In this document: positions 34,357-36,710 of the stretch, piece by piece
Layout of the letters: the number at the start of each line of letters is the position of its first letter
Numbering within the stretch: the stretch's first letter is position 1
Assembly: GCA_937860145.1 (NCBI GenBank)
Contig: CALMBF010000017.1
Span: 1-38,094 of the forward strand
Source of the DNA: an uncultured Geobacter sp.
GTDB lineage: Bacteria; Desulfobacterota; Desulfuromonadia; Geobacterales; DSM-12255
DNA: 38,094 nucleotides
Direction: 5' to 3'
Program-made: the position numbers and the translations under genes
The notes under the pieces: model-generated
The model's database searches: none
What the model saw: the letters and a program-made list of their open reading frames with translations, nothing else
Told to the model about the DNA's origin: nothing

Positions 34357-34851
34357 ATGCGTCATAATAAAGCTGGAAGAAGATTAGGAAGAACTACAAG
34401 CCACAGAGTTGCCATGTTTCGTAACATGGTGACATCTTTCTTGAACCATGAGCGTATCACAACCACCGATGCCAAGGCAAAAGAGCTGCGCTCCATAGCC
34501 GAAAAGATGATCACCCTCGGCAAGCGCGGTGATCTGCACTCCCAGAGACTCGCTGCATCATTTATCCGTGAGAAAAGTGTTGTCACCAAACTCTTCAGTG
34601 AAATAGCTCCTCGCTACGCTGACCGTCAGGGGGGATACACCCGCATCGTCAAGCTTGGACTACGTCCGGGTGATAATGCATCACTGTCGATGATCGAACT
34701 CGTCAGTGAGCCGTGCAATCCCAAGCCCGTGAAGGCAGCTGCACCTAAGGTCGTATCTCAGCCAGTGGCGGCTGCTGCTGAAGAGGTCGTCGAGGTTGCA
34801 CAGACCAAGGTCGTAGAGCCGGATGATGCCTGCGAGGCATCTGCAGACTAA
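34357..34851 (+). CDS. rplQ: 50S ribosomal protein L17 with C-terminal extension
   Basis: 164 residues versus 127 in E. coli. The conserved L17 fold runs to about residue 118 ([19 protein letters not shown] ... [10 protein letters not shown]). After it comes a tail of about 45 residues rich in Ala, Val and Pro and ending acidic ([13 protein letters not shown]). Low-complexity L17 tails are known in several phyla; no function is assigned. AAAGGA (34345-34350) precedes the ATG. It is the last gene before the cluster terminator. Confidence 0.97.
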
Positions 34852-34873
34852 CGATCTCGCTATAATACAAGTT

Positions 34874-34912
34874 AAGGGTATGGAATGTAAGTTGTTCCAT
34901 GCCCTTTTTTTT
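34874..34912 (+). terminator. Terminator of the ribosomal protein cluster
   Basis: 12 bp stem (34874-34885 with 34895-34906, one T-G pair), 9-base loop, then an uninterrupted T-run to 34912. It starts 22 bp after the rplQ stop and is the first strong terminator after the str promoter at 15663. Confidence 0.9.
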
Positions 34913-34942
34913 ATCCATGGCTGTCGTCCGATGGATGTTGTT

Positions 34943-35015
34943 CCTTCCGCAAGGACTTCGCGAGAAGGTAAGCCTCGGTGATGTGTCGCGAGGGAAGACA
35001 GCAGTGAAGTGCTGT
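34943..35015 (+). other. Intergenic stretch with several small hairpins
   Basis: No gene is evident between the rplQ terminator and the riboswitch. The stretch has four short stems in a row: CCTT/AAGG (34943-34954), CTTC-GCGA-GAAG (34956-34967), CCTCG/CGAGG (34973-34993) and ACAGCA/TGCTGT (34998-35015). They lie upstream of the putative promoter at 35022, so they would be transcribed only from further upstream. No known RNA family is recognised. Confidence 0.35.
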
Positions 35016-35021
35016 TTACGG

Positions 35022-35050
35022 TTGACGCCGGGAGTTAATTGGGGTAATAA
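35022..35050 (+). promoter_or_regulatory. Possible promoter upstream of the riboswitch
   Basis: TTGACG (35022-35027), 17 bp spacer, TAATAA (35045-35050). The -35 box is good and the -10 box is weak. The predicted start (about 35057) falls just before the aptamer at 35066, which supports it. Confidence 0.45.
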
Positions 35051-35065
35051 GCAGTTAAATCTGAA

Positions 35066-35186
35066 TATGTGGATAGACGACAATACTAAACCATCCGCGA
35101 GGATGGGGCGGAAAGCCCACGGGTCTCATGCAGACAGCCGGGTTGCCGAAATATCATGACGATATGTGGCGCCCGGCTTTTTTTTT
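35066..35186 (+). promoter_or_regulatory. GEMM-Ib riboswitch (3',3'-cGAMP type) with overlapping terminator
   Basis: The aptamer (about 35066-35156) has the GEMM-I architecture: AATACTAAACC (35082-35092), a CCATCC-GCGA-GGATGG hairpin (35091-35106) with a GNRA loop, GGCGGAAAGCC (35106-35116), a second hairpin from GGGTCT (35121-35126) and the 3' strand AGCCGGGTTGCCGAAATATC (35136-35155). The ligand-determining base aligned with G20 of the V. cholerae Vc2 aptamer is A35085, the hallmark of the cGAMP-sensing GEMM-Ib class of Geobacter. An alternative terminator stem pairs 35136-35142 with 35172-35178, 35145-35147 with 35168-35170 and 35151-35155 with 35161-35165, followed by nine Ts (35178-35186). 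It reuses the aptamer 3' strand, so ligand binding should prevent termination: an ON switch for the gene at 35276. Class assignment is strong; ligand preference is inferred from one base. Confidence 0.88.
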
Positions 35187-35275
35187 GCCTACTCAATGGG
35201 GCCGTGCGTCAAAACGGCTGGCGGGAGCAGGTTCCGCCGCCATGCCGCATTCTGTTGCAGCTGAAAGGAGCATGT

Positions 35276-35875
35276 ATGAAGCGTATCGCAGTAACAGTTG
35301 TCGGTATAGCCATGCTGGGATTGCCGCTGGCCCAATCGGCGTCTGCCGAGGTCAATGTCAATGTCAACGTCGGTGTGCCGGCGCCGCCATTGCCACCCCT
35401 GCCGGTCCCTCCCCCGCTCGTGCTGCCGGCTCCACCGGAGTTTATCCTCCCGCCCGCCCTTGGTGTGTACGTAGCCGTTGGGGTACCTCACGATCTGTTT
35501 TATATCGGGGGGACCTACTATCTCTACAAGGATGACCGCTGGTACAGGGGGCGGTATTACAACGGACCGTGGGACCGGGTGGAGCGCCGCCATATCCCGC
35601 CGGGATTGCGTAAACATAAATTTGAGCGCATCCGCTACTACCGCGACGAAGAGTACCGTCGCTACCGTGACGACCACGATCATTATCGAGGCAGACACTT
35701 CAAGCCCGAAAAGGAGTGGAAGGAGGAGCGCAAGGCTGAGCGCAAGGAAGAAAAGGAGCGGCGCAAGGCTGAGCGCAGGGAGGAGAAGGAGCGGCGCAAG
35801 GAGGAGCGGCGCTACGAAAAAGAGGAGCGCAAGTACGAGCGGGGCGAAGGCCATGGCCGTGGTCGTAACGACTAG
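35276..35875 (+). CDS. Exported protein with Pro-rich segment, WYRGRYYNGPW motif and charged helical tail
   Basis: 199 residues, no assigned function. A Sec signal peptide (1-24, cleavage probably after ASA) leads into alternating VNVNVNV (26-32) and a proline-rich stretch (35-61). A compact aromatic region follows: LFYIGGTYYLYKDDRWYRGR (74-93), then GPW and HIPPGLRKH. From about 145 to 190 the chain is almost only Glu, Lys and Arg in ERRKEE-like repeats, likely a long single alpha helix. The ATG at 35276 is 5 bases after AAAGGAG (35264-35270). I recall similar signal-VNV-PPP-WYR proteins from Geobacter. Control by the cGAMP-type riboswitch upstream suggests a role in surface or electron-transfer physiology; that is inference. 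Confidence 0.85.
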   Translation: MKRIAVTVVGIAMLGLPLAQSASAEVNVNVNVGVPAPPLPPLPVPPPLVLPAPPEFILPPALGVYVAVGVPHDLFYIGGTYYLYKDDRWYRGRYYNGPWDRVERRHIPPGLRKHKFERIRYYRDEEYRRYRDDHDHYRGRHFKPEKEWKEERKAERKEEKERRKAERREEKERRKEERRYEKEERKYERGEGHGRGRND

Positions 35876-35909: not shown

Positions 35910-35943
35910 AAAAGGGCTGCCTTCACCAGAAGGCAGCCCTTTT
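35910..35943. terminator. Bidirectional terminator between convergent genes
   Basis: Perfect 15 bp stem (35910-35924 with 35929-35943), loop ACCA, with A-run and T-run on either side. It lies between the exported protein gene (plus strand) and the methyltransferase (minus strand) and can serve both. Confidence 0.92.
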
Positions 35944-35978: not shown

Positions 35979-36710
35979 TCATTTCCTCCCCGTTGCAAGT
36001 ACCAGGAGCATGTCGTCCAGAATATCGTCGGAGGTGAACCGGATGTTGTGTATCCGTTTGAACTCTTCGTCTGCGGAGCGGTAAAGGTCGCGGATGGCAT
36101 CCATGTTCTCCCGGGGGATGGCGCCGTTGTCGATCCACTTGTTCACCGATTCCTCAGTGACATACTCTAGATCTGCCACGTTCTGGAACCCCTGGTTTTT
36201 CAGGGCGGTGGACATGTCCGACGGCATGAGGTAGTTGCGTCGCGCCGGGTTGCGCAGTTTCTGGATGGCGAAGGCCAGCTCACGGTCACTGGTACCGTAG
36301 GCGGTGAGGTGGCAGAGGACAACAGTCCCTCCGGGTTTCAGCACGCGGTAAATCTCCGGGATTGCCTTGTCCAACCTGGCAAACTGCAACCCCTGGCGGC
36401 AGACGACCGCATCGAAGCTGTCGTTCGGGAAGGGGAGTTCCTCCACCGGGGCAAAGACGATCTCATCCATGCACCCCTCGGCGTATTGTGCCATCTCCGG
36501 GCTGATGTCCAGGCCAACCACCTTTTTCACCTTGCCGAAGAATTCGCGGGCAATAAGGCCGGTCCCTGTGGCGATATCCAGGACAAGGGCGTCCGGACCG
36601 GCTCCGGAGAGCTCGTAGATGCGGCGGATCAGTGTCTGGTCCTCAACCCAGTTGGAAGAGTGGTTGTACTTAGCAGCCCGGTTCCTGAAATGAATGCTGG
36701 CATTTTCCAT
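35979..36710 (-). CDS. Class I SAM-dependent methyltransferase
   Basis: 243 residues of the Methyltransf_11/UbiE-like type. The SAM-binding motif I VLDIATGTG is at 43-51, the acidic end of beta 2 at GLDIS (66-70), and the later motifs PFPNDSFDAVVCRQGLQF (93-110) and RVLKPGGTVVL (122-132) follow in order. The substrate cannot be read from the sequence; quinone, lipid or small-molecule methylation are all possible. The start at 36710 is preceded by AAAGG on the minus strand. It lies 79 bp downstream of the radical SAM gene on the same strand, so the two may be co-transcribed. Confidence 0.9.
   Translation of the reverse strand: MENASIHFRNRAAKYNHSSNWVEDQTLIRRIYELSGAGPDALVLDIATGTGLIAREFFGKVKKVVGLDISPEMAQYAEGCMDEIVFAPVEELPFPNDSFDAVVCRQGLQFARLDKAIPEIYRVLKPGGTVVLCHLTAYGTSDRELAFAIQKLRNPARRNYLMPSDMSTALKNQGFQNVADLEYVTEESVNKWIDNGAIPRENMDAIRDLYRSADEEFKRIHNIRFTSDDILDDMLLVLATGRK

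Follow-up and report, generated by a model that had tools for sequence, protein, structure and literature searches.

The window, by which we mean the whole stretch of 38,094 nucleotides analysed here from an uncultured Geobacter sp. (contig CALMBF010000017.1), carries on its forward strand the end of a ribosomal protein operon, a GEMM-I-type leader and a gene for a putative exported protein. The ribosomal ORF is presumed to be rplQ on the grounds of gene order and sequence. The features of the locus are listed below.

34357-34851, +: ORF presumed to be rplQ (ribosomal protein L17), end of the ribosomal protein operon; a neighbour, not part of the switch
34874-34906, +: intrinsic terminator after rplQ (14-pair stem, then a T run), separating rplQ from the switch
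35072-35155, +: aptamer including the P1 helix (covariance-model match, pair list, leader alignment)
35072-35075 with 35152-35155 (GATA with TATC) and 35078-35079 with 35147-35148 (CG with CG), +: P1 pairs
35085, +: ligand-discriminating A, equivalent to G20 of c-di-GMP-I aptamers (alignment)
35091-35106, +: P2 hairpin with a GCGA tetraloop at 35097-35100 (alignment of 29 sequences)
35114-35144, +: P3 helix (model alignment, pair list, 29-leader alignment)
35146, +: C presumed to form a Watson-Crick pair with the ligand (equivalence to pilM C75 drawn from position)
35137-35186, +: terminator, hairpin 35137-35177 plus nine Ts 35178-35186 (sequence, fold, pair list)
35264-35270, +: likely ribosome binding site AAAGGAG (read from the sequence)
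35276-35875, +: putatively regulated gene for the exported protein, 199 aa (ORF; predicted model)
35911-35943, +: terminator-like inverted repeat 3' of the exported-protein gene (by eye)

The next ORF (35979-36710) lies on the other strand, and the exported-protein gene appears to be monocistronic. A consensus scan of 34850-35300 found no sigma-70-type promoter on the + strand.

A GEMM-I aptamer with A at the discriminating position

The Rfam c-di-GMP-I covariance model (RF01051) matched positions 35075-35150 (+) with 51.4 bits against a gathering score of 35 (E 2.3e-7), and the alignment spans model positions 1-87 of 87, which places the RNA in the c-di-GMP-I fold and bears out the GEMM-I aptamer proposed by an earlier, sequence-only reading of this DNA. 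At more permissive search settings the c-di-GMP-I-GGC model (RF03167) aligned to 35076-35151 with 55.1 bits, less than its own gathering score of 59, and the RNA falls outside that family. RF01051 matched 0 of 14 control genomes. Counting the own genome, 56 of 58 genomes contain a GEMM-Ib sequence pattern, and the same pattern read backwards gave 0 matches in those 58, which together with the control genomes excludes a chance match.

In the model-aligned sequence the discriminating position is A35085, in the context AATACTAAACC, so that the base called by the sequence-only reading is the A20 expected of a GEMM-Ib aptamer. The numbering of G20 and C92 follows the Vc2 structure literature. Folded without the terminator, the aptamer is predicted to have a ground state other than the aptamer fold, with P1 and part of P3 paired otherwise (z -1.36). 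A non-aptamer ground state is common for ligand-stabilised pockets, yet it lends no support to the assignment.

The expression platform and conservation of the leader

The terminator is formed by arms at 35137-35155 and 35161-35177 with a hairpin energy of -24.2 kcal/mol, and the nine Ts at its end (35178-35186) are as first described. It takes up bases from 12 of the 24 pairs in the aptamer, namely the six P1 pairs and six P3 pairs, making the two sets of helices mutually exclusive, and inside it C35146 pairs with G35169, so that both the exclusivity and the capture of the ligand-pairing C characteristic of a pilM-type switch are present. The ground state predicted for the full leader contains the terminator. 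The sequence-only reading had given the strand shared with the aptamer as 35136-35155; the sharing is real, and the arm starts one base later. According to PMC9262584, the G. metallireducens pilM leader is a cGAMP ON switch: its aptamer and terminator cannot form together, the terminator captures the ligand-pairing C75 (C75/G102 logic), and the ligand turns transcription on. By analogy with that switch, the exclusive helices found here fit the earlier prediction of an ON switch.

An alignment was built from 29 of the 30 distinct leaders found upstream of homologous genes (L048, a near copy of L047, was excluded). The aptamer core columns are invariant across these leaders, and 98.9% of cells preserve the aptamer pairs (96.1 on average after shuffling). 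In P2, four of the six pairs show double-sided changes with 100% of cells paired among the 29 sequences; such changes fill 27 cells, where shuffles average 3.6 and 0 of 500 reached as high. Further pair types in the aptamer did not exceed the shuffles in the 29 leaders (9 versus 8.8). Complementarity of the terminator arms is kept in 93.5% of cells, versus 26.6-52.5% when the arms are slid; no double-sided change occurs there among the 29 leaders, the 5' arm being fixed by the aptamer.

Recurrence of the switch and gene in relatives

Homologues of the exported protein were found in 53 of 58 genomes, own included. Among the best 30 homologue loci of that search, 13 (own included) have an RF01051 match upstream, all with A in a TACT context, distributed by family as 5 of 8 loci in f1, 8 of 8 in f3, 0 of 13 in f4 and 0 of 1 in f2. 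All 13 f4 loci are without a match to the switch, yet the 13 f4 genomes hold GEMM-Ib patterns elsewhere, indicating that this family has the class but does not use it before this gene.

These 30 loci were combined with 60 named loci into a set of 90, in which the two collections share genomes and include duplicates. A custom covariance model found 47 aptamers in the 90 loci, every one of them (47/47) with A at the discriminating position. Of these, 38 directly precede the homologous gene, at 63-322 nt from the matched stretch where the locus is a named one; 8 stand some 2 kb upstream, in seven Geomonas and a Geobacter MAG; and 1 is on the opposite strand (L086). The other 43 loci gave no aptamer match at E up to 0.01, including L106, with almost no upstream DNA, and L093, with little. 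Eight of the 47 aptamers are copies, meaning that the first 150 bases, counted from where the aptamer begins, are identical to those of another locus, and all eight are among the 38 upstream ones, leaving the 30 distinct leaders. The recurrence of the pairing in 38 of 90 loci agrees with the sequence-only reading in pointing to the exported-protein gene as the target of the switch. In the loci with a GEMM-Ib switch about 2 kb upstream (L113-L118, L129 and L088, from Geomonas and a relative), a gene or operon may intervene.

The distribution of the switch was also mapped onto a protein tree. From 79 distinct proteins 66 were chosen for alignment, with short, long and distant ones among those left out; L093 was then dropped, and L086, with its aptamer on the other strand, was scored as lacking the switch. 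The resulting tree of 65 proteins requires 8 changes of the switch label, where shuffled labels require 21.3 on average, showing that the association is clustered and common to two families, some gains or losses being implied. Cultivated carriers of a homologous gene include Geotalea toluenoxydans (L080) and Geomobilimonas luticola (L092). Three Elusimicrobia MAGs (L098, L099, L111) also encode homologues, perhaps transferred or misbinned, that lack the switch.

The ribosomal cluster beside the switch

The sequence-only reading had also drawn attention to the neighbouring ribosomal protein cluster. The position is correct, and its functional weight did not hold up: within flanks of at most 1.5 or 2.5 kb, less where a contig ends, rplQ was found in 1 of the 90 homologue loci, the window's own. 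The one congener (G001) has it 4.4 kb upstream, within the same contig. Two single-contig genomes (G017, G022) have it 1.1 and 0.39 Mb away from the best homologue, and in drafts inspected by eye the two genes are on different contigs, which leaves their distance unfixed. The ribosomal cluster beside the switch is most likely an accident of place, and a functional link to the operon was rejected on the rplQ terminator that stands between them and on the 1 in 90 count. A candidate second conserved RNA in 34900-35066 was set aside as chance, since RT-19 scored 21.2 bits against a threshold of 78.3 and the segment had no DNA match in 27 relatives.

The exported protein

The downstream gene encodes a protein with what was judged, by eye only, to be a Sec-type signal peptide, followed by a Pro-rich N part, a small beta domain (about residues 55-142) and a long charged helix (144-190). 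In the predicted model (mean pLDDT 84.8, pTM 0.61) the N-terminal part is of low confidence and the helix runs for 47 residues, so that the long charged helix of the sequence-only reading reappears in the model. Its description as a signal-peptide protein of unassigned function likewise fits, with the signal peptide resting on inspection by eye.

The Pfam search returned no match for the protein at E up to 1, leaving it outside PF12779 (WXXGXW), a family that weakly matches 5 of 12 aligned homologues (best 6e-5). NCBIfam gave matches only with E above 0.03, a PDB sequence search found no relative (best E 1.3), and Foldseek against the PDB found no match to the model at E <= 0.001. These negatives do not imply a new fold, as the fold was predicted for the whole protein rather than for the beta domain by itself. 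In VIA-align comparisons the long helix reached no more than Z 4.4 (rmsd 2.8, 50 aligned) and the beta part Z 3.8 (rmsd 3.8, 71 aligned) against a divergent polo-box domain, a likeness discarded as within noise.

Other GEMM-I aptamers in the genome

RF01051 found 20 matches in the own genome, which divide by the discriminating position and its context. Ten have the TACT context (the window switch and L012-L020), five have A in an AGC context instead of ACT (L002, L003, L005, L006, L008), and five have G (L001, L004, L007, L009, L010). Reading the A as the mark of the cGAMP class therefore fits the window switch and is insufficient alone, because the five AGC-context aptamers also have it.

Several TACT aptamers precede genes with recognisable products. 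One (L016) stands before PilM, and a tandem pair about 210 nt apart (L018/L019, C135) before a YkuD L,D-transpeptidase with a SPOR domain. Secreted-looking proteins with CxxCH motifs follow L013, L017 and a second tandem pair, also about 210 nt apart (L014/L015, C202), while L020 precedes an fn3/Big_7 protein and L012 a protein without a Pfam match. These targets resemble the published G. sulfurreducens regulon of pilMNOP, transpeptidase lipoproteins, PgcA and other cytochromes.

In the AGC group, inspection by eye of L002, L003 and L006 (C32, C95) showed each aptamer to be followed by a terminator of its own, in which the aptamer 3' strand plays no part; the gene behind L006 encodes a GGDEF protein. 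The ligand and logic of the AGC-context aptamers may differ from those of the TACT group.

Candidate cGAMP synthases

PF00990 gave 23 matches in the own genome, two of which are pieces of one gene, for a total of 22 GGDEF genes. At the GHxxG(D/S) position 18 have Asp, 3 have Ser (L035, L036, L042) and 1 is degenerate (L039). Ser at this position is the mark of Hypr GGDEF enzymes. With 18 genes keeping the usual Asp, c-di-GMP is very likely made as well. We take the GHxxGS position to correspond to S347 of GacA, and the mutant names in passages of PMC6456294 agree.

One of the three Ser-containing proteins, L036, has an N-terminal receiver domain, the motifs GHLTGS and GGDEY, and 6d9m as its best PDB match (7.3e-69). 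By its name and by the construct list of PMC6456294, 6d9m is a Geobacter Hypr GGDEF fused to lysozyme. L035 (C164:47294-47764) combines a GAF-like domain with GHLVGS and GGDEF, and L042 (C148:29100-29411) combines GYIKGS with GGDDF, the variant motif that PMC8835794 reports for a second G. sulfurreducens cGAMP synthase. The own genome thus encodes a candidate cGAMP synthase, the GacA-like Hypr GGDEF L036.

Proposed mechanism and alternatives

Together, these results indicate that the leader is very probably a cGAMP-sensing GEMM-Ib riboswitch acting as a transcription-attenuation ON switch before the exported-protein gene. The assignment to the cGAMP class follows from the full TACT context, which is common with the pilM switch, and from the GacA-like synthase. 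Without ligand, the downstream sequence would capture the aptamer 3' strand (P1 and P3; 35137-35155) into the terminator ending in nine Ts, which would stop the mRNA before the exported-protein gene. When the GacA-type Hypr GGDEF synthase of the own genome raises 3',3'-cGAMP, its binding would stabilise P1/P3, the terminator could not form, and the exported protein would be made. Alongside the observed fold, A35085, exclusive helices, recurrence and synthase gene, the identity of the ligand and the direction of switching are what we infer.

An aptamer of the same fold and ON mechanism could be dual or prefer c-di-GMP, leaving the c-di-GMP pool in control of the gene. Passages of PMC6456294 report that the A20-containing omcST switch answers both cGAMP and c-di-GMP, showing that the GEMM-Ib class does not guarantee selectivity, and c-di-GMP is very likely made by a genome in which 18 of 22 GGDEF genes keep Asp. 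The same source describes how A20G at nucleotide 20 of the Gmet_0970 switch moved selectivity from cGAMP to c-di-GMP. However, the pocket context in the window is that of the own pilM switch, the G. metallireducens counterpart of which PMC9262584 describes as responding to cGAMP; all 47 aptamers in the homologue loci keep A; and a GacA-like synthase gene is present, making a dual or c-di-GMP-preferring aptamer unlikely.

Still less probable are two readings in which ligand control, or the target, is different. The predicted ground state of the full leader contains the terminator, which speaks for a leftover aptamer before a constitutive attenuator, or for an OFF switch; but the aptamer core is invariant in 29 leaders, the terminator arms have stayed complementary even though the 3' one is not part of the aptamer, and the helices are mutually exclusive as in the ON switch described in PMC9262584, so that both a terminator without ligand control and an OFF switch are very improbable. 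We give just as little credence to a switch that serves an unannotated small RNA or a ribosomal-operon read-through unit. Its place directly after the rplQ terminator would suit such a unit, whereas none of the other 89 loci showed rplQ, the switch accompanies the exported-protein gene in 38 of 90, and the segment upstream of it (34900-35066) has no match in 27 relatives.

For the ON switch before the exported-protein gene, the recurrent pairing without a visible common neighbourhood suggests that the exported protein is a selected cGAMP target. The protein probably serves in the cell envelope or at the surface, together with the regulon's pili, cytochromes and L,D-transpeptidase, and its tie to electron transfer is suggested by association with that regulon only. 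A bolder and rather doubtful proposal would give this protein, with its small aromatic-rich beta domain and long charged helix, an ancient and unrecognised core role in the cGAMP signalling of the order, as an effector at the surface or envelope. If so, the cGAMP-induced exported protein would belong to the response no less than pili and cytochromes do, and its removal would show in mineral- or surface-associated growth. Literature listings that were not aimed at this protein and did not cover supplementary tables contained no title on its family; we regard the gene as a candidate member of the cGAMP regulon and do not claim it as previously unreported.

Comparison with known systems

The RNA is an ordinary member of a well-studied cGAMP riboswitch class. 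What is of interest is a conserved, uncharacterised exported target that two or more families of the order have downstream of a cGAMP-type switch, which makes the protein a direct candidate for cGAMP's action at the cell surface beyond cytochromes and pili. With c-di-GMP-I aptamers (RF01051) the window switch shares the fold, scoring above the gathering threshold, whereas those RNAs have G at the discriminating position and the window aptamer has A. The raw score of the c-di-GMP-I-GGC model (RF03167), 55.1 bits, is higher than that of RF01051 and below its own gathering score, and the GGC of its consensus stands where the window RNA has ACT.

The closest likeness is to the Geobacter cGAMP switches of pilM/Gmet_0970 and pgcA/GSU1761, from which the window switch differs in having a downstream gene without an assigned family or fold. 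Those switches have A at position 20 in common with the window switch, their terminators likewise use the aptamer 3' strand and sequester the ligand-pairing C, and they too stand before envelope or surface genes.
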